Below, one piece after another: positions 5,618 to 57,440 of a DNA stretch of 64,000 nucleotides. Under the pieces are notes generated by a model, which was given only the letters and a program-made list of their open reading frames with translations, searched no databases and was not told the DNA's origin. Position 1 is the stretch's first letter. Each line of letters starts with the position of its first letter. The position numbers were made by a program, and so were the translations under genes. The stretch covers positions 8,608,375 through 8,672,374 of the forward strand of contig CM020619.1 in NCBI GenBank assembly GCA_009829735.1. Reading direction: 5' to 3'. The DNA is from Pyropia yezoensis (Eukaryota; Rhodophyta; Bangiophyceae; Bangiales; Bangiaceae).

Positions 5618-6189
5618 TGTGGTATAAAACTCGATCCTCTCAGACACGTGTCAATATCCCTCGGGGGAAAGGGACAGGTAACGCAGAAAGGGGAACTACG
5701 AGAATGGTATGCCTGTTGCCTCACGTGCCTGCTCGCAGAGCAAACAGATACGCACGGTAGTGCACACGGGGAAGAGGAAAGCAAACGCGCAGTTGTCTTT
5801 TTCCCTGAGGGCGCGGGCCGAGGGCGCCTCGCTGTCCCTCTTAACGTGCATCTGGGGGAACCCCGGCACGTTGGCCCGGTAGCCCCCCCATAACCCCGAG
5901 TGGCCCCGACCCGAGTCTAACCTCGTCAGGTCGGGGGCCACTATCACTACTAATTCTATTCCCACTCACTAATCTCACACTCAAATTCTCTCAAATCAAG
6001 TCCCTCACAAATATGCAAAAACACATCAGAAATCCCTCTCTCGCGTGTGGATAGCGTAGTCCACCGCATCCCAGTGCCGGGCACGGGCCACGGCCGCCAA
6101 CCATCGCCACACGGCGGGCGTGTTCTGGCACCTGGTGCCCTCTGGTTGCAGTCCCGGGTCGGCGCCAAGTCGGGGCCAGGGATGCTACA
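5618..6189 (-). repeat. 3' LTR of element I (572 bp)
   Basis: On the minus strand it begins TGTAGCATCC and ends TATACCACA. It differs from the 14694-15264 LTR by one extra base in a C/T run. The antisense ORF begins 184 bp inward from it on the plus strand, so this LTR or the adjacent leader is the likely site of an antisense promoter. Confidence 0.9.
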
Positions 6190-6202
6190 TAGCTCCCTCC
6201 CT
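6190..6202 (-). promoter_or_regulatory. Polypurine tract of element I
   Basis: The minus strand reads GGGAGGGAGCTA directly before the TG of the 3' LTR. This position and composition fit plus-strand DNA priming. It lies outside the antisense ORF, which places that ORF inside the element. Confidence 0.65.
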
Positions 6203-6372
6203 AGTCCGGCACGTCCTCGGGCCGAACCAGGTGCCACCGTGCACAGCCTCGAGCACGTCCACACCGGTGCCGAGGTCGAGCGTCTTCACCCGGTCACGAT
6301 CACCTGCCCCGATTCTGCCCCCCCCCTCCGCTCCTTCACCTTGGCCCTCTCGTTCCCCGGAGTCTGGACGGT

Positions 6373-8490
6373 ATGTCCAGTTCCGAGATCCAAGCTGGGC
6401 CCGTGGTTCCGGCGGCGAGTGTTGCGGAGGAGAACTCGGGTCGTCGTGCCCCTCTCCTGCCTCCGGTTCCTCGGATGTCGGTGCCGGCGCCGGTCGCCAC
6501 GGCGGGGACGGATCGAGTTCCCCCGGCTTCCGCGATGCACCCGGTCGAGGCCCCCCCGGAGGGTCTCCCGGAGATGCTTCTTGGGCAGGACCCTCTGGCG
6601 GCCCGGCGTTACTCCACGGTGGTTGGCAACGCCGGCGCGGCCCAGTGCCAGCAGGATTGCATGGACCTCTGGCGCAAGGAACTCCAGCGCGGGGTCTTGA
6701 CCGAGATGGACAAGGCACGTCTTCATACGGCGGACCAGATGCGCCTGGCACAAGACCGCTCCCAGAGCTTCTCGGGTTCCTCTTGGGTTGCTCGTCTGGA
6801 GGATCTCCCCTTCGCACTGGTACTGGATCTACCCTTGACCGAGCGTCGCGTGTCCGCGTCCGTTCTCCGGTGGCCGGAGGAGGAAGGGTACGTCTACCGG
6901 GCGCTCAAGGTCTGGGACGAGGCGCTCAAGGGGTCGGGAAGCTTGAACTGCGACCCCCGTTCGAGCATGGTCGCTCTGGAGCCGCCTTTCTTGACCCGGA
7001 AATACTCCAAGTTGTCGCCGGCACGGGAGCAGGGTGAGCGACGCGGGCGTCAGCGTGACTTCCTTGTGAGCTGCAACCACCAGGAGTTCTGGAAGCTGGA
7101 CAAGGCTAACCGGGCGGCATACTACCCCAAGGTCATCCCGCAGCAGCAGGAAGTCGAGATCCCGGTCGGGTTTGCTCCTTCCAGCATCCCTTGCACCTGG
7201 TACTTCTTGGACGCCTTGACTCAGGCGTCGATCAAGGGCTTCTTCCACTCAATCCCGTACATGATGTACACGTCCGAGATGACAGTCTTGGCGGCCAACC
7301 ACTGGCTTCATGAGGTCTTGGTGTCCAACCGGCTTTGGTTTCTCCCTGACCTCCTGATGGTCTGGATTGTCGACAAGTTGACCGTCGACTTCCTGTGCAG
7401 CCAGGACGAGGAGTACAAGGAGCTCTTCCAGGCGATGATCGACTTCCGGCGTCTGGTGCCGGTGCATGACCGGAACTTCTTGAACGCGATTGCCGACCAG
7501 AACCGCCCGCGTCGGGATGGCTTCGGTTGGGCGCAGGTGGTCTACCAGTCTTCTCCGGCCAAGGTGCAGCTGGCGACGCCGCTTCCGGCGTGGCCGCAGC
7601 TAGGTAGCTTTCTTGCTCCGGCCGCCCTTGATCTTCTGCCAGTTGGGCCGCCGGTGCAGGAGTCGGGATGGGCCGCGGCGGTCGGTCGGGCGTCTGCGGC
7701 GGCTCCGCTTCCTCCGGTTGCCCCTGTCGCCCCGGTCGCCTCGCCTGAACCGTCACCGGCACGTCCGCGCCCTGTTCCGGCTGTGCCACTACTTCAAGCT
7801 CCTCCGGCACCGCGCTTGTCTGCGGCGAGTCTGGGAGTGGCCGTGCGGTCGCCGATTACTCCGGCCGCTCTACCCCGGACGCCTTCTTCCAACGCCGGCG
7901 GCGCTGTGCCTCCGCTGGAGTTGGGCACTCCGGTCTCGGGGGCCGTTGTGGACCGTCCGGTAGTGTCATCCTCAGGCCGGTTCGAGATTCCGGCGCCGAC
8001 TCTGCGCCTTACCCGCTTCCGGGTGCCTGACTGGTACCTGAACCAAGGTGGTCCAACATGCGACCAGTACGACGTCGGTATGATTGAAGACCAGCTGGGT
8101 CGTCTTCCGGTGCAGGTTGAAGGCGTCGGGTCTTCTCTGGTGCTGGGCACTTACGCCAGTGTCTTGAACGACGTGGTCGACCGGGTGTTTGCTTGCGCGG
8201 ACAGCGGTCAGATGTCGAACAACCCGGTGGTTGGCGAACTTCTGGCGACTTTGACGCGGCATGGCTTGGCCCAGCAGTGGTCAGAGACCTTCACGGGCTT
8301 CCAGCGGCGCCGACGGACATATCTGGATGAGCGGGAGCCACCGGCAACTACTGGTACTACTCCGATGGCGTCATACCGGGATGCGCCGCGTCCACCGCAC
8401 TACGTCATCCCGTCTTCCTCCGGTTCCCGTCGTACCGCGGAGGCAACGCCGGAGGACACTCCCGCGGCTCAGCGTCCGCGCAGGGAGTAG
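6373..8490 (+). CDS. Antisense ORF protein of element I (705 aa)
   Basis: The ATG at 6373 opens an uninterrupted 705-codon frame converging on pol, with 145 bp between the two stop codons. The N-terminal 90 residues and the region from about residue 400 to 530 are Ala/Pro-rich and probably disordered. Residues about 90-390 form an aromatic-rich core (for example YYPKVIPQQQ, then VEIPVGF, SIPYMMYTSEM, LWFLPDLLMVW). A second conserved block at about 540-650 holds TLRLTRFRVPDWYLNQGG. The core aligns with the antisense proteins of family 3 (54687-56630) and family 2 (45042-47411): YYPK, VE(I/V)P.GF, a helical stretch, then a W.LP motif. No catalytic motif, membrane span or zinc knuckle is seen. 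Function unknown. The copy in element II is a pseudogene. Confidence 0.85.
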   Translation: MSSSEIQAGPVVPAASVAEENSGRRAPLLPPVPRMSVPAPVATAGTDRVPPASAMHPVEAPPEGLPEMLLGQDPLAARRYSTVVGNAGAAQCQQDCMDLWRKELQRGVLTEMDKARLHTADQMRLAQDRSQSFSGSSWVARLEDLPFALVLDLPLTERRVSASVLRWPEEEGYVYRALKVWDEALKGSGSLNCDPRSSMVALEPPFLTRKYSKLSPAREQGERRGRQRDFLVSCNHQEFWKLDKANRAAYYPKVIPQQQEVEIPVGFAPSSIPCTWYFLDALTQASIKGFFHSIPYMMYTSEMTVLAANHWLHEVLVSNRLWFLPDLLMVWIVDKLTVDFLCSQDEEYKELFQAMIDFRRLVPVHDRNFLNAIADQNRPRRDGFGWAQVVYQSSPAKVQLATPLPAWPQLGSFLAPAALDLLPVGPPVQESGWAAAVGRASAAAPLPPVAPVAPVASPEPSPARPRPVPAVPLLQAPPAPRLSAASLGVAVRSPITPAALPRTPSSNAGGAVPPLELGTPVSGAVVDRPVVSSSGRFEIPAPTLRLTRFRVPDWYLNQGGPTCDQYDVGMIEDQLGRLPVQVEGVGSSLVLGTYASVLNDVVDRVFACADSGQMSNNPVVGELLATLTRHGLAQQWSETFTGFQRRRRTYLDEREPPATTGTTPMASYRDAPRPPHYVIPSSSGSRRTAEATPEDTPAAQRPRRE

Positions 8491-8635
8491 TAGTTGGATG
8501 CAAGGAGGGTGAGGGTCTTGGGAGAAGCGAGGAGGGAAGAGGCGGAGAGAAGGGTTGCTCGAGCGGGTGCTTGTTTTCCTTGATTGCTCCATGCTTGCAT
8601 TGCGTGTTCTCCTTGATATACCCGTTCCCTTCTTC

Positions 8636-11600
8636 TCAATCCTCTTGTTCCGCATCCGTTGCGGGTGAGCTCGTCTCGTCCCGAGGGTCTTGGTTGGCCC
8701 CGTCCTCTTGGTCCTCCTCCGTGTCCGACTCCAGAATCTTGCCGGCTCTGGCCATTGGAGTGCCCTCAATCCCGTTCCGTCGCGTGTAGGCACAGACGTC
8801 CGCGATGGGTAGCCGGTTTGAGGGTTCCCAGGTATCATCTGCCGGGTTAAAACCGAACCAGCGTACTCGCAGGTACAGGCGTCCATCTCTCCAGGCATGG
8901 TCGACAAACTTGACGTAGGCATACTCCCGGCCTTCTTCTGGGGATAGCCAGGGTATCGCAGTCCGCTTGCGCCGGGTCAAGTCCCGCTGGCTTGGCGGTG
9001 GGGCTCGGGTGACATGGTCGCTGCTCACCCGGTACGGAGAGCCATCCACGTCTAGAAGGAAGGTCCAGCCATCCGTATTGAGGATCTCATAAGGTCCATC
9101 CGTCTTAGAGTCCAGCTTCCCCCGGGTCTTGCTATGGTTGTCCACAAAAACCCAGTCGCCACCACCCAGTTCCTTGTTCTTTTCCCGGACACCCTTGTCA
9201 TAGTCCCGCTTGTATCGCTCCTGGGTCTTTGAGATTGACTCCTTGACTCTTGGGAGCAGGAGCTTTAGTTGTTCCAGGAACTCATCCTTTGCCTTGGGAC
9301 CTGACTTCAGTGCAGGCTGGAGACCATCCGGTATTCTTTCCAGGGAGAAGTTGGTCAGCCGCCTTGGGGTGACAAAGTCGAGTGGAGCGACTCCCGTTGT
9401 TCGGTGAACTCGGGAGTTGTAGGCTAGAGTGAGGACAGCCAGGAGCTCGTCCCAGTCTTCTTGGTGCTCTTCCACGTAGTGCCGTAGCATGTCCACTAGG
9501 GTCCGGTTGAATCGTTCCACCTGGCCGTTCGTTTGAGGGTGGTACGTCGTGGTGTACAAGTTCTTGATGCCCATCAGGTCACAGACTCCTTGGAAGAACA
9601 GGGATGCAAACTGGGGACCGTTGTCGGTTAAGACGGAGTCTGAAGGGCCGTAGGCAGCTATCCAGTACTCGCAGAAGGCCGACGTGACATCCAGAGCCGT
9701 GATGGTTCTCAACGGGATTGCTCGAGTGAACTTGGAGAACCGGTCACAAATGATGAGCAGGTATATGTTGCCACTGGAGGTCTCAGGTAGGGGCCCCAGG
9801 ATGTCCATGCTTAAGCTTGCAAAGGGCTCCGCCGCAGGGAATAGGCGTAGCTTAGAAGTCTTCTTCCTCTGGGACAACCGGTTCCTTGCACAAGAAATAC
9901 AAGCCTCCAGGCACTTATGGACGTCACTGGCCATGGTTTCCCAGTAATAATGTCGTCTCATGGAAGCATACATCCGATTGATACCAGGATGCCCGGCCTG
10001 GGGAGACGAGTGCTCCAGGCGTAGGATGTCAGCTCGTACACTCCGGGGTACGTAGACTTGAGTTGCCCCATCGAAGGGTGACACCCGTACCAGGAGTCCG
10101 TCTGTAGACTCGGAGAAGCGACTGTTCCGGTTCAGGTCCATTTGGTGGCGAAGCTCCAAGCATTGAGGGTCCGTCAATTGTGCCTCCAGCATCCGGTGAA
10201 TGGTTACCGGTTGATGAGCGTCAGGTGTCTCGTACAGGGGAGCGTGCCAGCCACGTCCGACATTCGGGAGGATGAAGCAAGGTATTTCCTCCGGGATAGG
10301 ACCGGTATCGGCTGCAGGAGTCTCCAGCCGGGACATGGTGTCGGCGCAGTGGTGCTCCCTCCCTGCTCTGGTGCACACCTTGTACTTGAACTCCGAAAGG
10401 CGTAGGCGCCACCGGGCGACCCTTCCTTGACTGCTGTCCATGCATAGCAGCCACCTTAGACTGGCGTGGTCCGTCCGGATGAGGAACTCTTGTCCTTCAA
10501 GATATGGACGTAACAGGAAGCAAGCCCAGACGACCGCCAAGCACTCGCGCTCGGTCGTGGAACAGTTCTTCTCGGCTGGAGTCAAGACGCGACTGTAGTA
10601 GCCTATCGGGAGGAAGTGCCCATCAGGTTGCTGCTGGAGTAGTGAGCACCCCACCTGGACGCCACAGGCGTCAGTCTCCAGAACAAACTGACCCTCCCGC
10701 TTGGGTAACGCCAGTACTGGAGTGGTGGTCAGGCGCTTCTTGAGCTCTTCGAAGGCTGCTGTCTGCTTCTCGTCGAACACCGGGAGTTGTGCTGGAAGCT
10801 TCTTGCTAGTAAGCTTGGTCAAGGGCCGGGCAATCAGAGCGTAGTCTCGTACGAACCGGCGGTAGACGTTGCACATACCCAGGAAGCTCTTGAGTTCCGT
10901 CTGGGTTTTAGGTTGCCGTGCATGCCGGAGGGCCCTGATGTTCTTCTCATTGACTCGGAGCTCCCCCGGACTCAGCACGTGCCCCAGGTACTCCACCTCA
11001 GTCTCAAACAGGTGGCACTTCTCGGCCTTGAGGGTAACTCCAGCCTTGGACAGGAGGGCCAGGACCTCTCGAAGGTGCTCCAGGTGTTCCGCTGGGGTCT
11101 TGGAGAAAACAATGATGTCGTCCAGGTAGACCAAACATGTTCTCCACCTTAGCCCCGACAGGATGATGTCGATGGCTCTCTGGAAGGTTGCCGGAGCATT
11201 AGTGAGACCAAAAGGGAGACGCTTGCACCGGAACAGTCCCATGTGGCACGTGAAGGTAGTCTTGTCCTTGTCCTCGTCAGCCAGAGGGATCTGCCAGTAA
11301 CCGGCATTACAATCCAGCGTCGAGAAGAGGGTGGCATCACCAAGAAAGTCGAGGCAATCATCCATCCGGGGTATCGGGTATACATCCTTGACTGTCATCT
11401 CGTTCAGGCGTCTGTAGTCAACGCAGAAACGGAAGTGACCGCCAGGTTTCGGGACGACTACCACCGGGAAAGCCCACTCGCCATCAGACGGCTCGATAAC
11501 ATCCATCTTGAGCATCTTGTTAACCTGCTTCTCAATCTCATCCCGGCGATGAGATCCAGCCCGGTATGGTTGCATGTGCACTGGTTTGGCATCTGGCTTG

Positions 11601-12730
11601 AGTTGAATCCGGTGTAGGGTGGCGTCCATCTTGCCCAGCTCTCCGGACCACAGGTGCCGATGTTCCTGGAGAAGCTTCTCCAGTGCCTCCTTCAAGTCGA
11701 GAGGGACGTTTTCTTGGTTGACCTTCGGCATCCCGGGCGGTGCTTGTTCGGGCTTCGGAGTAGTACGGCCAGCCTGCTCTTGTTCCGGAGATACGTCTAA
11801 GGCCGTCAAGTTGGATGCCAGCTCTTGTTGCAGGTTGAAGAGGTCTTCCTTGCTCATAGCGCGGGCGGACCCCCGGTAAGGCTCTGCTGTACCAACTCGA
11901 GTGCCCTTGGCGAGGGTTATTGGCTTCCGGCTCACGTTGACGATCAGCACCGAGAACGGAGTGTGCCTCTCCACCTTCTTGTGATGTCCGTGGGCTAGGT
12001 ATAATCGGTGTTTCGCCAGAAATTCCTTGCGTCCGTAGATCAGGCATTGACCTGCAGTCCGGGTCGTGACTTGAACCTTGGTCTCCGAGCGAGGAGGTAG
12101 GAGCACCGGTTTGATGAGGGTCAAGGTAGAGGGTGGGATGCGTTCCTTCTGGTTCTTGGCCACACGAACCTTGGTGTCTAGGTGCTCCAGCACTGGTGAC
12201 ACAAACCCATGGTTGAACTGCACCTTTCCTTCTCCGGGTAGGATGCTCTTGACATGCTGCTTCTGGAAGTCCCAGCCTAGGATGAGGGGGACTGATAAGG
12301 TCTTGACTACTAGAAAGGGAAAAAGCATTGGTTCATTGTTGACATAGATGGCGACGGGAAGACGGCCAAGCGGTCGTAACGTTTGACCGGAAGCGTCTAC
12401 AATCCGGGTCTTGGTAGGCGCTCTCCAGGCATGTCGACGCCAGCCCGGAGGTAACAGGTTCTCAGTGATGACGCTTGGTCCGGCTCCCGTGTCGACCACC
12501 GGCGTAACAGCTTGGGGGAGGCTATCCCCCACACGCATACGAGCATTAATCTTGAGGTTTTCCTTACGCAGGACGAGCAAGGTCCCCTTGAACAAACAGG
12601 GTGTCCAGGCGGCTACCGGTTGAGCAGGTAACTGCCGTCCTTTCTCCCGGCACGCAAGGGGAGAACAGGTAGAAAAACCCTGCCGTTGGAGATTCGGGAA
12701 GACACTTGGGGAGAGCGCCTGCCCTACTCG
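8636..12730 (-). CDS. pol: Pol polyprotein of element I (protease, RT, RNase H, integrase, chromodomain)
   Basis: The frame is open from the gag frameshift site (12730) to the stop at 8636, 1364 codons. There is no good ATG near its 5' end and it lies in the -1 frame of gag, so expression as a Gag-Pol fusion is the simplest reading. The order is: aspartic protease (VVDTGAG), reverse transcriptase (YLDD near 11125), RNase H (FVLETDACG and the TDHASLRWLL region), integrase with an HHCC zinc finger and DDE core (SMDILGP, LTDNGPQF, HPQTNGQVERFNRT), a GPY/F-type module (GPYEIL), and a C-terminal chromodomain (YVKFVDHAW then LRVRWFGFNPADDTWEP). All key residues are present, with no stop or frameshift. 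This is a Ty3/gypsy chromovirus. Confidence 0.93.
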   Translation of the reverse strand, partial: RVGQALSPSVFPNLQRQGFSTCSPLACREKGRQLPAQPVAAWTPCLFKGTLLVLRKENLKINARMRVGDSLPQAVTPVVDTGAGPSVITENLLPPGWRRHAWRAPTKTRIVDASGQTLRPLGRLPVAIYVNNEPMLFPFLVVKTLSVPLILGWDFQKQHVKSILPGEGKVQFNHGFVSPVLEHLDTKVRVAKNQKERIPPSTLTLIKPVLLPPRSETKVQVTTRTAGQCLIYGRKEFLAKHRLYLAHGHHKKVERHTPFSVLIVNVSRKPITLAKGTRVGTAEPYRGSARAMSKEDLFNLQQELASNLTALDVSPEQEQAGRTTPKPEQAPPGMPKVNQENVPLDLKEALEKLLQEHRHLWSGELGKMDATLHRIQLKPDAKPVHMQPYRAGSHRRDEIEKQVNKMLKMDVIEPSDGEWAFPVVVVPKPGGHFRFCVDYRRLNEMTVKDVYPIPRMDDCLDFLGDATLFSTLDCNAGYWQIPLADEDKDKTTFTCHMGLFRCKRLPFGLTNAPATFQRAIDIILSGLRWRTCLVYLDDIIVFSKTPAEHLEHLREVLALLSKAGVTLKAEKCHLFETEVEYLGHVLSPGELRVNEKNIRALRHARQPKTQTELKSFLGMCNVYRRFVRDYALIARPLTKLTSKKLPAQLPVFDEKQTAAFEELKKRLTTTPVLALPKREGQFVLETDACGVQVGCSLLQQQPDGHFLPIGYYSRVLTPAEKNCSTTERECLAVVWACFLLRPYLEGQEFLIRTDHASLRWLLCMDSSQGRVARWRLRLSEFKYKVCTRAGREHHCADTMSRLETPAADTGPIPEEIPCFILPNVGRGWHAPLYETPDAHQPVTIHRMLEAQLTDPQCLELRHQMDLNRNSRFSESTDGLLVRVSPFDGATQVYVPRSVRADILRLEHSSPQAGHPGINRMYASMRRHYYWETMASDVHKCLEACISCARNRLSQRKKTSKLRLFPAAEPFASLSMDILGPLPETSSGNIYLLIICDRFSKFTRAIPLRTITALDVTSAFCEYWIAAYGPSDSVLTDNGPQFASLFFQGVCDLMGIKNLYTTTYHPQTNGQVERFNRTLVDMLRHYVEEHQEDWDELLAVLTLAYNSRVHRTTGVAPLDFVTPRRLTNFSLERIPDGLQPALKSGPKAKDEFLEQLKLLLPRVKESISKTQERYKRDYDKGVREKNKELGGGDWVFVDNHSKTRGKLDSKTDGPYEILNTDGWTFLLDVDGSPYRVSSDHVTRAPPPSQRDLTRRKRTAIPWLSPEEGREYAYVKFVDHAWRDGRLYLRVRWFGFNPADDTWEPSNRLPIADVCAYTRRNGIEGTPMARAGKILESDTEEDQEDGANQDPRDETSSPATDAEQED

Positions 12731-14484: not shown

Positions 14485-14672
14485 GTTGGTCTCTTGACAG
14501 CCACAGTCCAGTTACCTGCGTGTCCAAAGATCGCAAGACCACAAGAGAGGGGTTGGAGAGCCAGGAATGGGGTTCCCGTGAACGGGTGCAAATAATTCCC
14601 AAACCACAGAAAAAGACAGAATAGGAACAACGCAACCGCTGCTCCCAAATGTCTCTTCTCAAACACTCCAAT

Positions 14673-14689
14673 CCCCTGCTGCTCCACCA
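14673..14689 (-). promoter_or_regulatory. Primer-binding site, element I
   Basis: The minus strand reads TGGTGGAGCAGCAGGGG, 4 nt inside the 5' LTR. It begins TGG, as expected for pairing with a tRNA 3'-CCA. The same 17 nt follow the 5' LTRs of element II and of the family-3 element. The primer tRNA is not identified. Confidence 0.8.
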
Positions 14690-14693
14690 AATA

Positions 14694-15264
14694 TGTGGTA
14701 TAAAACTCGATCCTCTCAGACACGTGTCAATATCCCTCGGGGGAAAGGGACAGGTAACGCAGAAAGGGGAACTACGAGAATGGTATGCCTGTTGCCTCAC
14801 GTGCCTGCTCGCAGAGCAAACAGATACGCACGGTAGTGCACACGGGGAAGAGGAAAGCAAACGCGCAGTTGTCTTTTTCCTGAGGGCGCGGGCCGAGGGC
14901 GCCTCGCTGTCCCTCTTAACGTGCATCTGGGGGAACCCCGGCACGTTGGCCCGGTAGCCCCCCCATAACCCCGAGTGGCCCCGACCCGAGTCTAACCTCG
15001 TCAGGTCGGGGGCCACTATCACTACTAATTCTATTCCCACTCACTAATCTCACACTCAAATTCTCTCAAATCAAGTCCCTCACAAATATGCAAAAACACA
15101 TCAGAAATCCCTCTCTCGCGTGTGGATAGCGTAGTCCACCGCATCCCAGTGCCGGGCACGGGCCACGGCCGCCAACCATCGCCACACGGCGGGCGTGTTC
15201 TGGCACCTGGTGCCCTCTGGTTGCAGTCCCGGGTCGGCGCCAAGTCGGGGCCAGGGATGCTACA
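14694..15264 (-). repeat. 5' LTR of element I (571 bp)
   Basis: Ends are TGTAGCATCC and TATACCACA on the minus strand. The DNA immediately right of it (15265 on) is not a polypurine tract, so this LTR is not also the 3' LTR of element II. Confidence 0.88.
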
Positions 15265-15355
15265 CTAGGGTTTATACCCCGGGTTCCCCACCATCTCCTT
15301 CAGGAGGATAAGGTACCCCGTTGGTGTGGGCGTACGCCCAGATATCCACCACATC
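15265..15355. other. Orphan 91-bp segment between elements I and II
   Basis: This short sequence matches neither the LTR nor the start of the intact antisense ORF. It begins CTAGG, nearly the same as the CCAGG left of element I. It is probably what remains of the insertion site plus the broken 3' end of element II. Confidence 0.45.
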
Positions 15356-23433: not shown

Positions 23434-23437
23434 AATA

Positions 23438-47865: not shown

Positions 47866-48061
47866 TTACAGTAGGCGTCGTCGCCTCATGTAAGGCATGA
47901 GGAGTTGGCGGGGTATTTTCGCCGCCTGTTCCCAGGTGGGTGAGTCGTATCCGACCCACATAACCTTCACGTACCAGGGTCCTGGTAGGTTCGGGTCGGT
48001 GTGTCCGACCACGCTCTCTACTTGGTATGGAATCCCATCCGGTCCCACCGGGTCGTCTGAC
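47866..48061 (-). pseudogene. pol: Pol tail (chromodomain) of family-2 copy B
   Basis: It encodes DDPVGPDGIPYQVESVVGHT to the end YMRRRRLL, the chromodomain that finishes pol. It is separated from the rest of pol (57441-61256) by the family-3 element. The reading frame is unbroken in this piece. Confidence 0.88.
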
Positions 48062-48529
48062 TGTGGCAGTATTGACCCCCAGGTAGGGGGCAACACGTGC
48101 CATGCAAGGGGCGGCAGGCCACTAGCCTGGTCCGTTCCTCCCCCTGCATTTGGGTCCATATTCCCTAAGTTCGGGATAGTTAGCTTAGTAGTAAATCCAA
48201 CTTGGATTTGAGGGTTTTCTGCATTTATCGTCTTGAATTTTCGTGTGGCCCGGTGGGCAGGTGCTGGGGTGGGAGATTCTGAGTGGCGAGATTCTGAGTG
48301 GACCCTGGGGGGATAAGGGGAGGGACAGCGGGGCTTGGCCCTGCGTCCCCGTCCCGACCAAGAAACTGTTGGACCACACACCATCTTCTTGTTTGTCCGT
48401 GGGGGGATTGCCCCACAACAGGGATAGAGTGTGTGCGACTTGCACTTCTTCCGGTTCCCCCGACACGGGAGGCAGCCCTCGCACACCGCCCCAACTTGGG
48501 TACTGTGTGTGCGAGTGGTTTTTGCCACA
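48062..48529 (+). repeat. 5' LTR, family-3 element (468 bp)
   Basis: Perfect 7-bp terminal inverted repeat TGTGGCA/TGCCACA. It contains a 14-bp direct repeat GAGATTCTGAGTGG (48273-48286 and 48288-48301). Confidence 0.93.
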
Positions 48530-48531
48530 TT

Positions 48532-48548
48532 TGGTGGAGCAGCAGGGG
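48532..48548 (+). promoter_or_regulatory. Primer-binding site, family-3 element
   Basis: TGGTGGAGCAGCAGGGG, 2 nt after the LTR, the same 17 nt as in the family-1 elements. A tRNA ending CCCCTGCTGCTCCACCA would pair fully. Confidence 0.8.
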
Positions 48549-48648
48549 ACAGAGGTAAACTTTACCTCCGGGTGCACCCGGGTGTAGGGGGCCCTCTGTC
48601 TCAGAGGAACGGTGGACTTGGACCGTGTCATACGGATCGTTAGCCAAC

Positions 48649-50595
48649 ATGGCTAGCTCGGACCCCCCGTCGTCCGGGGAGTACACGGGTGACGCACGTA
48701 CTTCAGTGCCTTTGAATACTGGTGAGACACAGGTGGGTTTACCTGGGGTCGCAGAGGGACTAGAGGTCCCTCAAGCCAGCAGGACTGGAAGTGCGGGCGG
48801 GCAACAGGCCACCCCGACTCAGTCGGGAGTTCACTCGGGTGACACTTCTGACGTGGGTGGGCCGAAGTCTGGCCACCGCGTGGTATACTCAACGGGAACG
48901 TCCCAAGGGGTGAGGACTGTCCCCGCGAGTTCCACTCGGGTTGGAGCCAACTTTGGCATGGAGCCATCGCCAACTAGGCTTTCGGAGGACGGCGGACCTC
49001 CGTTGGTCGGCGATGGGCTCGCGCCCATGCCCCCGGTTGAGACCCCTGAGGAACGTGGTTACCCCTCAGGTGGACTCCCGGAGGCGGACCGAGACTCAAC
49101 TGGAGTCGTCAATCCACTCCTCGCGGAAACTGTCCGTCGGGAGGCGACCAATGTGTTGCGGCAGACTTTGCCGGACCTGGTGGTCACGATGACGAATACT
49201 ATTCTGAATCAGATTGTAGCGAGTTTGCCAGATGGCCTGAATGTCCAGACCGGATTGGGGCTTTCGAGCCCACAGGCGCAGGGGGAATCCCTCCCCACGC
49301 CTATCTCGGGTCGCCCCGAACTGGGGGCGACACCTGTGACTCCCAACGAGGGAGCCACACCATACGCGGTGGGGCGTACGCCCTTCACGGGGGAGTTCCC
49401 CTCGGAAACGCCGGCGGCTACACCAAGCTCGCCGTACCAGACTACAGGCACTGAGGGTGGACTTACCCCAGTGCCACAGCGGCTGTTCCCTCAACGTGAG
49501 GTGCCGCCCAAGATTCAGGTAGCCAACCCGGTCTACCAGCGGATCTTTGACTGTGAGACCTACGCTCTCCACAACAAGTCGGTGGCGTATGGTCCTGACC
49601 AGGCCCGAGCTATGGGCCGTGCCAAGAAGAATGCACTTCATTCTTTTGGGCACAGAGCGGAGTGGGATGGAACTCCCCCCCTCCGTGTCTTTGAGTTCCT
49701 ACGTCGTTTCACAAAAGCCTGTGACGACAATGCCATAAGTGAAGGCATGGCTTTTTACATGCTACAGGAGTTTACGAAGGGAGACCTGCGGACAGAACTT
49801 ATGTCCGTCATGCCCAGCTCCTCAAGTGGAGGCGCTGGGGAGGTGACGTCCTATTTGGAGCTCGTCAACTGGTTGTTGAGGGCCATGGTTGATGAAGCGG
49901 CGTTGGCTTCTCAAGTCGAGGAGTTTACGCAAGCCCATCAGGAAGAGGCGGAGGACGAGTTGTCCTTTGCGGAGCGAGTCCGTAAGCTCAACAATCTTTG
50001 TGGGTTTCTTCATCCACAAGCTGTGGTGAAGAGTCGGTTTGTGGAAGGACTCCACTGGTCAGTCCGGATGGAGACCCGGGAGCATAACACTGCCCGGGCG
50101 ACCCTGGCCGAGTTGGCTAGGTTCGCCTACCGCAGAGGCGAGGCCTACCGCAAGTTGCGGGAGGAACAACGCCAGGAGCGTCAGGCCGAGTTGGCCAAGG
50201 AACGGGAAGAGGCGCGCCAGGCCAGAGAGTTGCGAGAGGCACGCCGAATCCGCAAGGAGAGGGTGGTAGCTGCCGTGGGAACTTCCCAAGGTACCTCGTC
50301 GTCTTCCCCAGTTGGGAAGACCCCTCCGGGAACTGATCATCGGTGTTGGAACTGCAACTCCGATGGTCACTGGGCATATGATTGCCCCAAGTTGAGTAAA
50401 CGCATCCAACAGCTTGTTAGGAATGCGAGTAAGAAGTCGGCTACGAACGAAGTGCGTTCACGCCGCGAGGGTGGGTCTCGACCAGTGGTGGCGGTCGCCA
50501 CACCCTCGACGGAGGGGGCGGACACGTCGTCCTCGGACTCGTCGTCGTCCCCTTCGCCCTCAGATTCGGACGCCAAGTCGGCGGGAAACGAATGA
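48649..50595 (+). CDS. gag: Gag of family-3 element (648 aa)
   Basis: The ATG at 48649 starts MASSDPPSSGEY. A Pro/Ser/Gly/Thr-rich N-terminal half is followed by a capsid-like helical region from about residue 290 (VYQRIFDCETYALHN, LRVFEFLRRFTKACDD, where family-1 Gag has ICAFLRRFVKACND). A charged coiled-coil-like stretch rich in E/R/Q lies near residues 490-545, and a CCHC zinc knuckle (CWNCNSDGHWAYDC) near 566-579. A Ser/Asp tail ends GNE-stop. The stop overlaps the first ATG of the pol frame (ATGA). Gag forms the particle and binds genomic RNA. Confidence 0.92.
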   Translation: MASSDPPSSGEYTGDARTSVPLNTGETQVGLPGVAEGLEVPQASRTGSAGGQQATPTQSGVHSGDTSDVGGPKSGHRVVYSTGTSQGVRTVPASSTRVGANFGMEPSPTRLSEDGGPPLVGDGLAPMPPVETPEERGYPSGGLPEADRDSTGVVNPLLAETVRREATNVLRQTLPDLVVTMTNTILNQIVASLPDGLNVQTGLGLSSPQAQGESLPTPISGRPELGATPVTPNEGATPYAVGRTPFTGEFPSETPAATPSSPYQTTGTEGGLTPVPQRLFPQREVPPKIQVANPVYQRIFDCETYALHNKSVAYGPDQARAMGRAKKNALHSFGHRAEWDGTPPLRVFEFLRRFTKACDDNAISEGMAFYMLQEFTKGDLRTELMSVMPSSSSGGAGEVTSYLELVNWLLRAMVDEAALASQVEEFTQAHQEEAEDELSFAERVRKLNNLCGFLHPQAVVKSRFVEGLHWSVRMETREHNTARATLAELARFAYRRGEAYRKLREEQRQERQAELAKEREEARQARELREARRIRKERVVAAVGTSQGTSSSSPVGKTPPGTDHRCWNCNSDGHWAYDCPKLSKRIQQLVRNASKKSATNEVRSRREGGSRPVVAVATPSTEGADTSSSDSSSSPSPSDSDAKSAGNE

Positions 50596-50628
50596 CCGTT
50601 GGAGCTGGTCGTCCGAAGCTCACAACGG
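50583..50628 (+). promoter_or_regulatory. Programmed -1 ribosomal frameshift signal (heptamer plus stem-loop)
   Basis: The slippery heptamer G GGA AAC (50583-50589) is in gag register. A 6-nt spacer (50590-50595) includes the gag stop. An 11-bp stem follows: arms 50596-50606 and 50617-50628, one bulged A at 50622, and a 10-nt loop. Loop bases 50609-50614 (TCGTCC) could pair with 50653-50658 (GGACGA) to form a pseudoknot. Pol is open in exactly the -1 frame. The geometry matches known -1 frameshift sites; efficiency is not knowable from sequence. Confidence 0.8.
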
Positions 50629-53600
50629 CAGCCTCGGCCAAGTGGGCCAAGAGGACGAACCAACCGTGTCGGATACTGCGGCGACCTAAGGGAGTCCGCC
50701 CACCTCGGGTGGGACTTCCCAAGAACGTAAACCCACGTCGGGTCATCGCGGTGCTGACGGGTGAGAACTTCCAGGTGGCTGGACGGGTGCAACTTGCCCC
50801 CGGCCGCGCCTGTTGTGCCCGTATCGTACTTGATACCGGGTCAGGAGCCTCCTTGATACGCAAGTCGCTATTACCAAAGGGGATGAGGCTCCAACGCTGG
50901 AAGTCTAAAGCTGACCATCTGATCGATATCAATGGTGGGGTACTTCCCATCGTTGGTGCCGTGACCCTACCAACTCGGTTGGGGACCCATGAGGTCGACG
51001 TGACCTATGGTGTAGTTGAGAATATATCGGTACCCCTGCTTCTGGGTACCCCTTATGTCGTAACACAAGTGCCTTTGATTTGTGGCCCTGAGTACTGGGT
51101 CAAGTTGATGAATGGGGAGACTATCCCCATCCTTGGTAAGGGAAAGTCTGTGGCTCCTGTGACAGTTTCACAGTCGAAGCCTGTTTGTTCTGTGAGGGAA
51201 GGGTTTACTGCTACTCTGCGTTTAGCCCGTAAAGTCATGTTGCCCCCCAACTCGGTGGCGCACGTGGATGTTGTAACTGATTATGCGGGGAACGGGTTGG
51301 TGCACCCTAACCCCCGTCTTGCTCGCAAGCACCAAGTGCATGTTGCCCTTGGCACGATGGACTCCAAAGCCGGAGTCCCGTGGAGGATCCAGGTGATGAA
51401 CCTGAGCTCGTCGCCCAAGTTCTTCAAGTCGGGGGCCAAGTTCGGCTATATCGACCAACACGAGGGACCGGTAGTAGCGGTCACCCTCAGCGCGGGCGCA
51501 AGTAGCGACCCGCAGTCCGGAAAGGAGAAGCATCAAGCCAAGTCGGCCGCCTCTCCTCGGCCCCAGGTAAACATGGAGGGTGTTCCACCCAGGTTGAGGG
51601 TTCAAGTTGAACGCCTCTTGGACCAATATCACAAGTTGTGGGATGGTCAATTGGGACTCATGAGAGCTACCCAACACCGGATCGAGTTGAAACCCGGTGC
51701 GCCCCCTATACGCCAACAACCGTATAGGGGGGGACCCCGTTCAAGGGCCCTCGTTAAGGAGCAAGTTGCTCGCATGGAGGCCCTCGATGTGATCGAGGCC
51801 AGCAACGCCGAGTGGGCGAGTCCGGTGGTGATCGTCCCCAAAGTTGATGGGACCCCCCGGTTCTGTATCGACTACCGTAAGCTCAACGAGAGCACGGTGA
51901 AGGATAGTTATCCCCTACCTCGGATGGATGACTGTCTGGACTCTCTGGGGGAGGCAAACGTGTTCTCTACCCTGGACTGTAACGCGGGGTACTGGCAAAT
52001 TCCCATTGCCCCGGAGGACAGGCATAAAACTACCTTTACCTGTCACTGTGGTACCTACCAGTGCAAGCGCCTACCGTTTGGCCTGTGTAACGCGCCGGCA
52101 ACTTTCCAGCGCGCTATGGACATGATTCTGGCCGGAGTACGGTGGCAGATCTGTCTCGTGTACCTAGACGATATCATTGTGTTCTCCCGAAGTCCGGAGG
52201 AACACATTGGCCATCTTGGCCAGGTGTTCAAGCTACTTGCTGACGCCGGAGTGTCACTGAAGGCGAGTAAGTGCCACCTCTTCACTCAAGAGGTGGAGTA
52301 CTTGGGACATGTTGTCCGTCCGGGGCGTCTCAGTGTCAACGAGAAAAACTTGAGGGCCATCCGCAAGGCTCAGTACCCCCGGACCCAGACCCAGATGAGG
52401 AGCTTCCTCGGGATGTGTAACGTGTACCGACGTTTCACTAAGGGCTTCGCCAAAGTGGCGAAGCCGTTGAATGAGTTAGTGAGCTCAACGCTACCGAAGA
52501 ACCTGCCTCCCCCAAGTCGGGTGGAGCAGGAATCCTTTGAGACTCTTCGGGACCTTCTGCTGAAGCCCCCTATCCTGGCTATTCCCAGGTTGGGAGGCCA
52601 CTACATCCTGGATGTGGACGCTAGCTACGACCAACTTGGTTGTGTGTTGCTTCAGCAACAGCCGGACAAGGAGTACTTGCCGGTGGGATACTTCAGCAAG
52701 GGGCTAAACTCGGCCGAGAAGAACTACGGAGTCACCGAGTTGGAAGGACTCGCAGTGGTATGGGCGGTGACGTCACTTCGTCACTACCTAGAGGGTGAGA
52801 AGTTCCTCATCCGCTGCGACCACCGCGCGTTGCAGTTCATCTTCAAGACGGACTGTACGAACACTCGTCTCAACCGGTGGAGGGTGCGACTTGCACCCTT
52901 CAACTTTGATATTGAGTACCGACCTGGCAGGCAACATGCCCTTGCCGACGGCCTCTCTCGGGTACCTACCGAGGGACTGGACACCACCCCAGTCGATGAG
53001 GACATCCCCATCGTGGGGGTAGTCACGCGCTCGGGTCAGGCGTTGAATCCCGAGGCGCCAGGGAACAAGAAGTACTTGCCCCTGTCCCTGGACGAAGTAG
53101 TGAAGGCCCAGGCCGAGGATCCCTTCTGCAAGTCGCAGAGGGATACCCTGGATACAGTGGCGGAGACGCGGTTCTTCCTGGGAGACGATGGCCTCCTCAT
53201 GAGGAGGGGGGTATTCCAGGGGACCGAACAACTTGTCGTCCCCGCATCCCTCAAGGACAGTATCCTTGAGAGGGAGCATAACGCTCCCACGGGTGGACAC
53301 CTGGGGTCTAGTAAACTGTACCAGACCCTGAGGACCAGGTACTACTGGCCGTCCATGGTGGTGGACATCTACAGTTGGGTGGCTGCCTGCACAAGTTGTG
53401 CACAGAACCGTCTGATGGAACGGCGGCCTACTACGGCTATGCTATTGTTCCCGGCCAAGGAGCCCTTCGCCGCGTTGGCGATGGACATCCTTGGGCCACT
53501 GCCAGTGACCGAGGAGGGCAACCAGTACCTCCTGGTCATCTGTGACCGCTTCACGAAACTTACGCGAGCGATCCCACTGGCAGAGATCACGGCCATGTCG

Positions 53601-54575
53601 GTCGTGTCAGCCTTCCTAGATCACTGGGTTGCCGCGTATGGCATTCCGGATAGTACACTATCGGACAATGGACCGCAATTTGCGTCTGTACTGTTTCAAG
53701 GAGTGCTGGATATGTTGGGGGTTAAGGCAAACTATGCCACCCCCTACCACCCACAAACTAATGGGCAGGTGGAGCGCTTCAACAAAACTATTGTTAGGCA
53801 GCTGCGCCATTATGTGAGTGAGCACGTGAAGACGTGGGACCAATACATTTCTATTCTGACCACTGCCTACAATTCGCAGGTTCACTCATCTACCGGGGAA
53901 GTACCCCTCGCTTTTGTGACCCCCCGTCGCGTGCGGTCTATTGCTGTGCGGCGGTCGCTCCCAACTAGGGAGGATGATGGCAGCACGCCTACTCCTACTG
54001 AGAGTAAGGCGGAGTTCGCTGCTAGGCTTGAACACCTCATCCCTAAAGTCAGGGCTGAGATGGACAAAGCACAAAAGCGCTACAAGCGTACCTTTGACAA
54101 AAAGGTGCGCAATGCTAAACATGTCCCCGAGCAGGGTGACTGGGTGCTGGTACACTTGCACACCCCAACTGGGGGTAAGCTGGTATTCCAGACGAAGGGA
54201 CCGTACCAGGTCCTTCGTACTGATGGGCGGCGTTTCACCATCGAAAGTAACGATGGGGTCCGCACAGTGAACGGACAGGACGTGGTCAAAGTTGCACCAC
54301 CGTCTGCAGGCGACCCAGCTTGGGCGCGTGCTTTGAAAACGTGGCGCCTGCCCTCGCTGCCTGCAGCCAAACAGGGCCCGCAGGAGTACGTGTTCGACAA
54401 GTTCATCGACCACGGCTGGGATGAGGATACTGACCGCCTCATGTTGAGGGTGCGTTGGTTTGGCTACAAAGCCAAGGATGATACGTGGGAGTATGTGGAG
54501 GACCTTCCTGCTGAGAGGGTCCGGGCGTACTGTGCCCGGAACGAGATAGACCCTAACAGCCCTCCCTCAACGTGA
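50589..54575 (+). CDS. pol: Pol polyprotein of family-3 element
   Basis: The frame runs from the slippage point to the stop at 54575 (1328 codons); the first ATG in frame is at 50592. The order is: protease (IVLDTGSG near residue 78), reverse transcriptase (FCIDYRKLNE, LPFGLCNAPATFQRAMD, YLDDIIVFS near 525), RNase H (ILDVDASYDQLG, CDHRALQFI), integrase with HHCC finger (HLGSSKLYQTLRTRYYW, CTSCAQNR) and DDE residues (AMDILGPL, LSDNGPQF, HPQTNGQVERFNKT), a GPY/F module (KGPYQVLRTDG), and a C-terminal chromodomain (YVFDKFIDHGW, LRVRWFGYKAKDDTWEYV). No defects are seen. It makes cDNA and integrates it; the chromodomain may steer integration to modified chromatin. Confidence 0.95.
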   Translation, partial: RMTVGAGRPKLTTAASAKWAKRTNQPCRILRRPKGVRPPRVGLPKNVNPRRVIAVLTGENFQVAGRVQLAPGRACCARIVLDTGSGASLIRKSLLPKGMRLQRWKSKADHLIDINGGVLPIVGAVTLPTRLGTHEVDVTYGVVENISVPLLLGTPYVVTQVPLICGPEYWVKLMNGETIPILGKGKSVAPVTVSQSKPVCSVREGFTATLRLARKVMLPPNSVAHVDVVTDYAGNGLVHPNPRLARKHQVHVALGTMDSKAGVPWRIQVMNLSSSPKFFKSGAKFGYIDQHEGPVVAVTLSAGASSDPQSGKEKHQAKSAASPRPQVNMEGVPPRLRVQVERLLDQYHKLWDGQLGLMRATQHRIELKPGAPPIRQQPYRGGPRSRALVKEQVARMEALDVIEASNAEWASPVVIVPKVDGTPRFCIDYRKLNESTVKDSYPLPRMDDCLDSLGEANVFSTLDCNAGYWQIPIAPEDRHKTTFTCHCGTYQCKRLPFGLCNAPATFQRAMDMILAGVRWQICLVYLDDIIVFSRSPEEHIGHLGQVFKLLADAGVSLKASKCHLFTQEVEYLGHVVRPGRLSVNEKNLRAIRKAQYPRTQTQMRSFLGMCNVYRRFTKGFAKVAKPLNELVSSTLPKNLPPPSRVEQESFETLRDLLLKPPILAIPRLGGHYILDVDASYDQLGCVLLQQQPDKEYLPVGYFSKGLNSAEKNYGVTELEGLAVVWAVTSLRHYLEGEKFLIRCDHRALQFIFKTDCTNTRLNRWRVRLAPFNFDIEYRPGRQHALADGLSRVPTEGLDTTPVDEDIPIVGVVTRSGQALNPEAPGNKKYLPLSLDEVVKAQAEDPFCKSQRDTLDTVAETRFFLGDDGLLMRRGVFQGTEQLVVPASLKDSILEREHNAPTGGHLGSSKLYQTLRTRYYWPSMVVDIYSWVAACTSCAQNRLMERRPTTAMLLFPAKEPFAALAMDILGPLPVTEEGNQYLLVICDRFTKLTRAIPLAEITAMSVVSAFLDHWVAAYGIPDSTLSDNGPQFASVLFQGVLDMLGVKANYATPYHPQTNGQVERFNKTIVRQLRHYVSEHVKTWDQYISILTTAYNSQVHSSTGEVPLAFVTPRRVRSIAVRRSLPTREDDGSTPTPTESKAEFAARLEHLIPKVRAEMDKAQKRYKRTFDKKVRNAKHVPEQGDWVLVHLHTPTGGKLVFQTKGPYQVLRTDGRRFTIESNDGVRTVNGQDVVKVAPPSAGDPAWARALKTWRLPSLPAAKQGPQEYVFDKFIDHGWDEDTDRLMLRVRWFGYKAKDDTWEYVEDLPAERVRAYCARNEIDPNSPPST

Positions 54576-54686
54576 GGGAAGGCCGAGCAACAGTGCCAAG
54601 AGAGTGCTTCAAGTCGAAGTGGTACGCAGAGTGGCTTTAAACTACAGCCCTAACCCTCACACTCTCACAACAAAGGCAGCTGCCAA

Positions 54687-56630
54687 CTAGGCACGCATGC
54701 TAGACTCTCCCACTCCACGGCCCTCGCCCTCACGTGGAGGCGAGCGGCGAGACCCACGCCGATAACGGTCTCCACTCGTTGGAAGGGGCGGCGGCTCCAA
54801 GTCGGAACCGTCGCGCCCCTCACGGTCGCGCAAGTGGCGCCGACCGTGGCTACTCTTCTGCCTGGTCTTGCGCGCAAGTTTGCGACGCAGACGCTGGACA
54901 GACTCCGTCTCCGATGGGGTAGAGGACTCCGAGACGGAGTAAGACAACTCGTCTTCCGACACGGAGGGAGAGCGCCGCGAGTGACGGCGACGACGGCGAG
55001 GAGGCGAGTATGCCCGGCTCGCACGACGCTTGCCACGCCCAAGTGGGGTTGGCTGGGGCATAATAGCCCCAATGCGAGCCAACTCGGCCGTCATAAACTC
55101 CGCCACCGACTCGCAACTCGCGGTCGCCACTGCAGTACGAACGCGCTCCTCAAGTTGAGGAGTCTCGGAACTTTGGAGGGTTGCGGTCGACGCGGCCAAC
55201 CAGGAAATGGTGCGCACCAACGTGGTGATCATCATCTCTGAGGTTAGAGGCGTGGGCGGTAACACCAACTTGGGGTATACCGTCAGGAGGGTGGCCCCCA
55301 AGTTGGGAGACACCGGTGTGGATGACTCCACGGCCACGCTGATCGGGATGTTCCCGTGAGGCTGGAAAGGAACAGGAGGAAGCGGAGGGGCACGCCGAGG
55401 TGGCGGTACCCGGGTGTAACTGCGACCCCGACTTGGGGCTCCCGCAGTAGGTTGAGTCATATGGTCATCATATGAGGGCACAGCCATAACTATGGGCTTG
55501 TCCGGGGGTGGCGCAGTGTGACGATCCACCCCCGGGGCATACGGGTAGTCCCCGATGCCCAACCCCTCTCGTAGGACCACACGGCCGTCGTGAAGTTCAC
55601 GAGCGACCCACACGAACTGGCGAAGTGCGCCATCGTCCTTGGGCCCCCGAGTGGGGCGGCGCAACTTGTGCTCAATGCTCTCCCACTCGATAAACTTGTG
55701 GAGGCGGAGCATCTCCTCAAGTAGAGTGAGTTGTCCTGACGAGCACCCCTCAGCAACTAGCTGAGGGGTGAGCTGTTCCAAACCCTGGATGAGCCGGAGG
55801 GGGAGATGCCAGAGCATCCCCCGCCGCTGAACACATGACACCCAGGTCGACATGACCTCGAGGAGCCACTGGGTGGCCAACATGGCCCACACCAGATGAT
55901 CAGGGCCAGCCGTCAACATGACGGAGCCGAAGTGGTCAAGCAACCGTGGCAACAATGCCGGGAACCCGTAGGGGACCTCAACTTGAGGCCACCACTCGGG
56001 CTTCTTCGGGTAGTATTGCTCCTTACTGGCAGCAGACTGCTGAGGAAACTCAAGTTGAGCCGAGGTCACCAAGTAGGGACCTCGCCGGAAGTCCTTCTCC
56101 ATCCGCACATCAAAGTGATGAGTGTGCGGATCGGCCTCGTGAAGGTACGGGGGGCGAGTTGCCACCGCGTCCCAAGTGAAGATCGGCAAGTCGCCGGGAC
56201 CCGGGATAGTTCCCCCGCGGTCCACCATGGCCTTGGCCCGCTGCACGTCCTCGACCTCCTCGTCGTCCAGGAAGGCAAACTGGTCCGTCCTGAAGCCGGC
56301 AGGGAACCCGACCCTACGGGGATACTTCTCCCGTAGGCGGTCCCATACCCGACCCATCGCTGCGCCGAGTCGGCCACAGCGAAGAACAGTCAACCCCTCC
56401 TCATACAGAGGCCAAGCGGGGTAAAACCACCGCCCCAAGGCCTCACGCGGGACAACTTGTCCCGCCTCCGGGGGAGATCCTGCCGTCAACCCAAAGCCGG
56501 GTGACGCGGGAGTCCCACCCCCCGGAGCGATCGCGGAGCCCCCGCCGGAAGTCCCGGCAGGCGCTGCACCGTAGGAGGTGTCCTCCATACGCTCATCGAG
56601 AGAGTCCGTCTCCACTCCCGGAGTCGCCAT
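54687..56630 (-). CDS. Antisense ORF protein of family-3 element (647 aa)
   Basis: The ATG at 56630 (MATPGVETDSLDER) lies about 340 bp inward of the 3' LTR; the frame is open for 647 codons and ends 111 bp from the pol stop. The core at about residues 60-360 carries RRGPYLVTSAQLEFPQQS, KEQYYPKKPEWWPQVEVP, LLDHFGSVML, TQWLLEVMSTW and RRGMLWHLPLRL. These align with the family-1 protein (YYPK, VEIPVGF, W.LP) and the family-2 protein (FGSV, LFHLP). The last 110 residues are Arg/Ser-rich like SR or nucleic-acid-binding tails. The frame continues upstream of the ATG without a stop for 57 codons. Function unknown; intact in this young copy. Confidence 0.85.
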   Translation of the reverse strand: MATPGVETDSLDERMEDTSYGAAPAGTSGGGSAIAPGGGTPASPGFGLTAGSPPEAGQVVPREALGRWFYPAWPLYEEGLTVLRCGRLGAAMGRVWDRLREKYPRRVGFPAGFRTDQFAFLDDEEVEDVQRAKAMVDRGGTIPGPGDLPIFTWDAVATRPPYLHEADPHTHHFDVRMEKDFRRGPYLVTSAQLEFPQQSAASKEQYYPKKPEWWPQVEVPYGFPALLPRLLDHFGSVMLTAGPDHLVWAMLATQWLLEVMSTWVSCVQRRGMLWHLPLRLIQGLEQLTPQLVAEGCSSGQLTLLEEMLRLHKFIEWESIEHKLRRPTRGPKDDGALRQFVWVARELHDGRVVLREGLGIGDYPYAPGVDRHTAPPPDKPIVMAVPSYDDHMTQPTAGAPSRGRSYTRVPPPRRAPPLPPVPFQPHGNIPISVAVESSTPVSPNLGATLLTVYPKLVLPPTPLTSEMMITTLVRTISWLAASTATLQSSETPQLEERVRTAVATASCESVAEFMTAELARIGAIMPQPTPLGRGKRRASRAYSPPRRRRRHSRRSPSVSEDELSYSVSESSTPSETESVQRLRRKLARKTRQKSSHGRRHLRDREGRDGSDLEPPPLPTSGDRYRRGSRRSPPREGEGRGVGESSMRA

Positions 56631-56956
56631 GGCTCTCCCCAAGTTGGGGAGAGACGTCCTGGCTATCGCGGCACGAGACCCGCCTCGAGTTGAGGGGGAC
56701 TCGGATCGTGGGTAAACGGGTGGCCTCCCCAGCGTGGGGTGGCCCCGTGTAAGGTGAAGGAGAAGTGGTGGTGGTGGTGAGGTGTGAACCGGGGAGAGCA
56801 AGCTGCCAAGTGGGCAAGCTTGAGGAGAGGGGCGGCCAACGTGACCGCCTCCACATCCGCGTTACGTACTCAAGGGGGGACAGCAAGTCGCGTCCCCCCC
56901 CAACGCCGAGACGTGCGTTTACGCACCCCCTCACAGGGCCGACCGGGTCGGTCGGA

Positions 56957-56972
56957 ACTGAGGAGAGGGGAG
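56957..56972 (+). promoter_or_regulatory. Polypurine tract, family-3 element
   Basis: The purine-rich run GAGGAGAGGGGAG lies directly before the TG of the 3' LTR. Confidence 0.75.
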
Positions 56973-57440
56973 TGTGGCAGTATTGACCCCCAGGTAGGGG
57001 GCAACACGTGCCATGCAAGGGGCGGCAGGCCACTAGCCTGGTCCGTTCCTCCCCCTGCATTTGGGTCCATATTCCCTAAGTTCGGGATAGTTAGCTTAGT
57101 AGTAAATCCAACTTGGATTTGAGGGTTTTCTGCATTTATCGTCTTGAATTTTCGTGTGGCCCGGTGGGCAGGTGCTGGGGTGGGAGATTCTGAGTGGCGA
57201 GATTCTGAGTGGACCCTGGGGGGATAAGGGGAGGGACAGCGGGGCTTGGCCCTGCGTCCCCGTCCCGACCAAGAAACTGTTGGACCACACACCATCTTCT
57301 TGTTTGTCCGTGGGGGGATTGCCCCACAACAGGGATAGAGTGTGTGCGACTTGCACTTCTTCCGGTTCCCCCGACACGGGAGGCAGCCCTCGCACACCGC
57401 CCCAACTTGGGTACTGTGTGTGCGAGTGGTTTTTGCCACA
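56973..57440 (+). repeat. 3' LTR, family-3 element (468 bp)
   Basis: Same length as, and by eye identical to, the 5' LTR. The proteins conceptually read through both LTRs on the minus strand agree over about 150 residues. Confidence 0.93.

Follow-up and report, generated by a model that had tools for sequence, protein, structure and literature searches.

Three LTR-retrotransposon families with an antisense gene

The window analysed here, a stretch of 64,000 nt (64 kb) from the red alga Pyropia yezoensis, carries three families of Ty3/gypsy long terminal repeat (LTR) retrotransposons, F1, F2 and F3. In each of them, the interval from pol to the 3′ LTR contains a long open reading frame (ORF) of 647–789 codons that runs antisense to gag-pol. 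The two coding units are convergent, with stop-to-stop distances of 145 bp (F1), 454 bp (F2) and 111 bp (F3). An earlier reading of the sequence (the original prediction) had proposed this arrangement, and it is confirmed by the ORFs and the stop distances; the predicted coordinates and strands of the five antisense genes described below also hold. A profile of the antisense protein, run against the six frames of the window, matched two F1 copies, two F2 copies with a relic, and F3, and nothing else.

The F1 element occupies positions 5618–15264 on the minus strand. Its 3′ LTR (5618–6189) and 5′ LTR (14694–15264) differ by one mismatch in 572 (99.825% identity). The gag ORF (12724–14484, minus strand) has a weak zinc-knuckle match by Pfam, and the pol ORF (8636–12595, minus strand) encodes protease, reverse transcriptase (RT), RNase H and integrase. 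The antisense gene (6373–8490, plus strand) is open over 705 codons. By self-BLAST, the 5′ LTR also adjoins a second F1 copy in tandem, the antisense gene of which (15354–17233, plus strand) is split by a 2-base insertion.

The F2 element is read on the minus strand and has a 3′ LTR of 363 bp (44088–44450). This consists of an R-U5 side (repeat and unique 5′ regions, 44088–44261) and a U3 side (unique 3′ region, 44262–44450), with a boundary inferred from the identity drop in another genomic copy, L052 (see below). The antisense gene (45042–47411, plus strand) has 789 codons, comprising a variable N-terminal part of ~240 aa, a conserved core (~241–560) and a helical C-terminus (~715–780). The 3′ end of F2 pol (47866–48061, minus strand) is separated by the F3 insertion from the remainder, which encodes RT, RNase H and integrase in two ORFs (57443–60729, minus strand). 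Two further antisense genes of this family lie on the minus strand: F2b (1–2017), which is open and runs off the window edge, and a broken relic (26847–28426) with a recognisable C-terminal part.

The F3 element (48062–57440, plus strand) is nested in the F2 element and interrupts F2 pol. Its 5′ LTR (48062–48529) and 3′ LTR (56973–57440, preceded by a purine-rich tract) are identical (468/468), and a 5-bp target duplication, CTGAC, is present at the flanks. Between the LTRs are a gag ORF with a zinc knuckle (48625–50595) and a pol ORF (50592–54575), both on the plus strand, and the antisense gene (54687–56630, minus strand), which has 647 codons from its ATG in a frame that is open upstream to 56801. 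Searches with Pfam detected RT, RNase H and integrase among the element proteins. Weak chromodomain matches at the C-terminal end of pol (E = 0.0005 in F1 and 0.0015 in F3) both fall short of the Pfam cut-off, and the chromodomain-like end of F2 pol was recognised by eye.

Homology among the antisense proteins

The antisense proteins of F1 and F3 gave a BLASTP score of 39.7 bits and those of F2 and F3 a score of 47.8 bits, compared with control maxima of 25.8 and 28.5 (101 controls each). Identity is ~23% over 166 residues (F1–F3) and 230 residues (F2–F3). Profile comparison with local hhalign, a check named in the original prediction, gave 45.0 for F1–F3 and 47.5 for F2–F3 against shuffle maxima of 24.1 and 25.4 (40 shuffles each). 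The F1–F2 pair scored 22.3 bits by BLASTP, inside its null (maximum 25.8), and 26.0 by profile comparison, barely over the shuffle maximum of 24.3, in the register predicted by F3. On these scores, F1 and F2 are connected mainly via F3.

Four motifs had been listed as common to the three proteins. One of them, L[WF][FH]LP, is present in all three, while YYPK and VE[VI]PxGF occur in F1 and F3 only, and FGSV in F2 and F3 only. The statement that gag and pol have clearly diverged between the families is borne out by identities of 42–48% for pol and 25–28% for gag (relic excluded).

Coding status and selection

The longest ATG-initiated ORFs in 300 dinucleotide shuffles of each pol–3′ LTR stretch were 424, 411 and 312 aa for F1, F2 and F3, compared with the observed 705, 789 and 647 aa. 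Since each antisense ORF is longer than any found in all 300 shuffles of its region, these lengths are not due to chance.

In the pair of F1 copies, the antisense gene shows a ratio of nonsynonymous to synonymous substitutions per site (dN/dS) of 0.21 over the alignable part, or 0.38 with the poorly alignable start, against 0.14 for pol and 0.24 for gag. Differences by codon position are distributed 36/35/108; a similar pattern is seen in just one of the five other frames, that with common third positions. The F2–F2b comparison gave dN/dS of 0.43 for the whole gene and 0.18 for the core; six of six indels are multiples of three. The comparison of F2 with the relic, for which the alignment is poor, gave 0.80–0.99 in all frames, as for a dead copy. 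More diverged F2 alleles from elsewhere in the genome (synonymous divergence, dS, 0.71–0.77; see below) show dN/dS of 0.29–0.32, with 0.20–0.23 in the core, and out-of-frame indels number 0/10 and 1/11. Between F2 and F2b types, the N-terminal region of the F2 protein (45042–45761 in the window) varies far more than the core, with dN in the N-terminal third of 0.26–0.28 versus 0.016–0.026 in the core.

Thirty F1 copies from the genome gave a ratio of nonsynonymous to synonymous polymorphism (pN/pS) of 0.11 for the antisense gene and 0.07 for residues 191–400, although these copies are the best by protein score, a choice that favours low pN/pS. A pol fragment from 27 of them gave 0.08, the other three being excluded for a stop or shift within the fragment. 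Twelve further F1 copies, not among the scored F1 copies mentioned below, were picked by a DNA anchor. In nine of these the gene region aligns at ≥97.7% identity and is open in six and broken in three, giving a pooled pN/pS of 0.27; the remaining three are truncated or replaced and are excluded from that value, and all twelve together give 0.82.

The antisense gene is a protein-coding sequence under purifying selection, and it is found in three diverged families. The original prediction had expected dN/dS between copies to be informative, and it is well below 1 in the F1 pair, the F2 pair and the diverged F2 alleles. Its proposal of one ancestral, maintained component stands as far as selection and the F1–F3 and F2–F3 homology are concerned; it is marginal for F1–F2, and the family-2 gene has also been exchanged, as described below. 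A functional product consisting of the antisense RNA, with no role for a protein, is scarcely credible. Antisense RNA is able to regulate elements (reviewed in PMC7264820), but the purifying selection acts at the amino-acid level and the indels are mostly in frame.

Copies in the genome and relatives elsewhere

The genome scanned comprises 107,475,971 bases in 11 contigs, three of which are large (43.6, 34.3 and 29.4 Mb). The antisense gene is free of stops in 62 of 63 scored copies of F1, 44 of 57 of F2 and 63 of 63 of F3; since scoring took in the best copies, these fractions are not unbiased rates. Eight F3 copies differ pairwise by 0–7 bases. Identical LTRs, the target duplication and near-identical open copies together point to a recent insertion of F3.

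Presence of the gene was also counted from the best-scoring pol anchors. At least 24 of 40 F2 anchors have it: 18 adjoin an F2-type ORF, one adjoins an ORF matched by a Pyropia vietnamensis protein, and five of five fetched from the 21 unmatched anchors carry it, leaving 16 outside the count. This is a lower bound, since matching by coordinate list can yield positives only. The five fetched F2 anchors have ORFs of 815 and 790 aa in two cases and 428, 519 and 698 aa in three. For F1, no fewer than 28 of 40 anchors have the gene: 19 match the list, and nine of 12 fetched from the 21 unmatched carry it, with nine outside the count. On these counts, most copies in both families have the gene, and its pN/pS in F1 lies near that of pol.

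A homolog search with the F2 core returned six clusters, in which the named relatives are four hypothetical proteins of P. vietnamensis, 55–63% identical. Searches with the F3 antisense protein (P0003) and with A2 returned one near-identical cluster only. No relative was found in IMG/VR with P0003, with A2 or with an alignment of pol, nor in GTDB with F3 pol.

Domain, fold and signal searches

Searches of family libraries and PDB gave nothing above chance, in agreement with the earlier statement that the proteins resemble no described family; one of 12 family members matched DUF6214 at E = 0.014, and four PDB matches had E values of 0.77–3.2. A kinship of the F3 core (P0003) with TRP28 had been suggested by eye and was rejected, as searches with PF04195 lent it no support: there was no match up to E = 10 for three cores and 12 family members, under HMMER filters that drop most matches above ~0.1. 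The ORF3p protein of the algal element REM1 reportedly has a PHD finger in its reverse ORF. In the antisense protein, Pfam matched neither a PHD finger nor a chromodomain. No transmembrane segment is evident, the highest 19-residue hydropathy being 1.57. Because of this value and the antisense orientation, the protein is not considered envelope-like; env-like ORFs are in sense orientation and have a transmembrane segment.

A structural or particle component, such as a second capsid-like or packaging protein made from the other strand, is a rather unlikely identity for the product. Its dN/dS in the F1 pair is close to that of gag, and helical segments appear in the low-confidence structural models, but the similarity to gag of the same elements is not convincing (one weak match at E = 0.035, judged to lie in a low-complexity stretch), Pfam finds no zinc knuckle, and PDB offers nothing above chance.

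Two candidate signals were set aside. TATAWA occurs on the antisense strand of the F1 and F2 LTRs; the F2 site lies just upstream of the inferred R in the sense direction, and the reading as an antisense TATA box was dropped because it may be a sense promoter. TGTAA, considered as a polyadenylation signal 3′ of the antisense stops, is not consistent across the genes.

Apparent exchange of the antisense gene in family 2

When the P. vietnamensis protein was compared with the genome, 67 loci were scored, none in common with the 57 scored F2 loci, and four were fetched (L051–L054). Two of these, L051 and L054, are F2b-type. The other two, L052 and L053, have a second allele, which encodes a protein 61–64% identical to that of F2, and they show 94.5% DNA identity to each other over 2,103 bases. 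The pol next to these alleles has 95–97% protein identity to the F2 pol of the window. Relative to F2, dS is 0.15–0.18 in pol and 0.71–0.77 in the antisense gene. Measured in 200-base steps, identity drops from ~0.94 to ~0.70 near the pol–antisense junction. The LTR is covered at one of the two loci, L052, and there R-U5 is 97.7% identical to F2 while U3 is without a match. In F2b, L051 and L054, which have the F2 core, U3 is 93–97% identical to F2. Since a diverged allele with a different U3 is found on near-identical pol and R-U5, the gene and U3 can be regarded as an exchangeable cassette.

Within the F2 type, the N-terminal ~240 residues also vary by type. F2b-type N-termini adjoin pol that is 99% identical to that of the window (L055 and L057), and the N-terminus of L058, which is ~90% identical to F2 over its full length and to F2b over half, looks reshuffled.

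A raised mutation rate in the antisense region, with no recombination, would offer another account of the mosaic, and the synonymous divergence of the F1 pair is indeed higher in the antisense gene (0.26) than in pol (0.19). Against it, the core and C-terminus of L051 are 95% identical to F2, about the level of pol, whereas L052 and L053 fall to 74% at the same pol level; these two loci have one common allele at 94.5%; and past U3, the R-U5 of L052 returns to 97.7%. A higher mutation rate is therefore highly improbable. The sequence comparisons favour exchange as the reading for family 2: the antisense gene does not always descend along with gag-pol but appears to be swapped between elements, and U3 moved with it at the single locus with LTR coverage. 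The allele swap would be explained most simply by a switch of template, near the pol–antisense junction, between genomic RNAs packaged together.

Antisense genes of this family also occur in tandem. Four F2-type antisense genes are spaced at 3,489 bases in G000:C2:9880067-9892399. At L054, the antisense gene is bracketed by two LTRs, and pol gave no match in the interval; these are antisense-only units in tandem.

Comparison with known elements

By position and orientation, the genes belong to the aORF-3R class (antisense ORF between pol and 3′ LTR), and the same element order is found in L051 and L052. Antisense ORFs are described from plant elements, and the product of Grande gene 23 is nuclear (PMC7264820, PMC11963269). 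The plant Retand/Tat group (Grande gene 23, RIRE2, Retand; TRP28 antisense ORF) consists of non-chromovirus elements of flowering plants, whereas the elements described here are from a red alga, have a chromodomain-like pol end and give no PF04195 match. Outside plants, the Boty elements of Botrytis likewise have an antisense ORF, the gene brtn, between pol and the 3′ LTR (cited in PMC7264820). REM1 of Chlamydomonas reinhardtii, an algal Ty3 chromovirus, also has a reverse-frame ORF (PMC2774666). That frame is reported to hold a GPY/F module and a chromodomain, while in the present elements the chromodomain-like segment is on pol. Retroviral antisense genes of the HBZ type, from human T-cell leukaemia virus (HTLV), also specify an antisense accessory protein (PMC11963269), and the comparison is one of analogy only.

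An account of LTR elements in a red alga (PMC5970526) makes no mention of an antisense gene in its passages on these elements. In the passages of the literature searched (including PMC6317226, PMC2774666, PMC12636532, PMC3350952 and PMC8226300), the protein family, its occurrence in three putative chromodomain-type families, the red algal host and the swapping of divergent alleles on near-identical pol are not described; relative to that literature, these features are new. Most reports of a third, antisense gene in LTR retrotransposons come from flowering plants. A sequence-unrelated protein family in red algal elements, under selection and present in recently inserted copies, suggests that genes of this kind originated, or were retained, on more than one occasion and are useful to the element.

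Proposed role

By analogy with the plant antisense ORFs, one of which has a nuclear product, the likeliest role of the antisense protein is that of an accessory factor acting in trans for the element. It would be made from its own antisense transcript and would regulate the expression of the element, the fate of its RNA or its escape from silencing, with no structural or envelope function. The full proposal, to which we give roughly an even chance, is that a related set of putative chromodomain-type Ty3/gypsy elements carries a third gene that is antisense, convergent with pol and under selection, that its family-2 alleles are swapped by template switching, and that it encodes, from its own antisense transcript, a trans-acting accessory regulator.

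Several observations weigh against this proposal. No motif or domain indicates regulation, and only F3 has an evident basic, serine/arginine (SR)-rich tail. Two AlphaFold models have a mean predicted local distance difference test (pLDDT) score of 33 and 35 and provide no usable fold; the helical C-terminus of the F2 model is the sole part with pLDDT of 70 or more, and a Foldseek search with a low-confidence model, which returned no match at E ≤ 0.001, was not used. The F1–F2 link is weak on its own. Three of the 12 fetched F1 anchors are without an alignable antisense gene. That U3 belongs to the cassette is seen at a single locus, L052, and neither second-allele copy is fully intact: L052 has one in-frame stop, and the N-terminal match of L053 is in another frame. 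Finally, selection at the codon level cannot separate a regulator from a structural protein.

Plant VANDAL anti-silencing proteins counter host silencing. A similar function is a tentative possibility for the antisense protein, in which case the fast N-terminus and the exchangeable alleles would reflect an arms race or recognition of the element's own U3. The occurrence of two alleles at dS ~0.75 and 61–64% amino-acid identity on near-identical pol is in keeping with this, as are the far faster N-terminal third of F2 and F2b types and the U3 that differs along with the gene in L052. However, no segment measured in the F2-type comparisons reaches a dN/dS of 1, and a single crossover carries gene and U3 together with or without an interaction.

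A more far-reaching reading, speculative and of limited likelihood, is that the gene and its adjoining U3 form a paired specificity cassette in which the protein recognises its own U3. Mutually non-cognate cassettes on one gag-pol backbone, exchanged by template switching, would then let the antisense gene determine the fate of each sibling element: activation, protection or silencing. The linkage of gene and U3 is no proof of interaction, because a single template switch moves both together. Since alleles appear to have been swapped naturally between elements with near-identical pol, a matched protein–U3 pairing is testable.

Other features of the window

The region 5618–24007 holds the two tandem F1 copies with their common middle LTR and an adjoining F2 relic, and its outer flanks are without a target duplication. 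The primer-binding stretch is the same in F1 and F3 (14661–14693 and 48529–48560). Positions 49321–49758 are duplicated at 63565–64000, at the window end past a 500-N gap (63065–63564), with a spacing of ~14.24 kb and 99.5% identity, and a second identical F2 pol stretch is found in the genome ~14.2 kb further on. Either a genuine tandem duplication or an error of assembly could account for this ~14.2-kb repeat. Other ORFs in the window, at 30179–32674 and 39204–40307, encode a Ulp1-like protease and a protein with a putative ice-binding-like adhesive domain.

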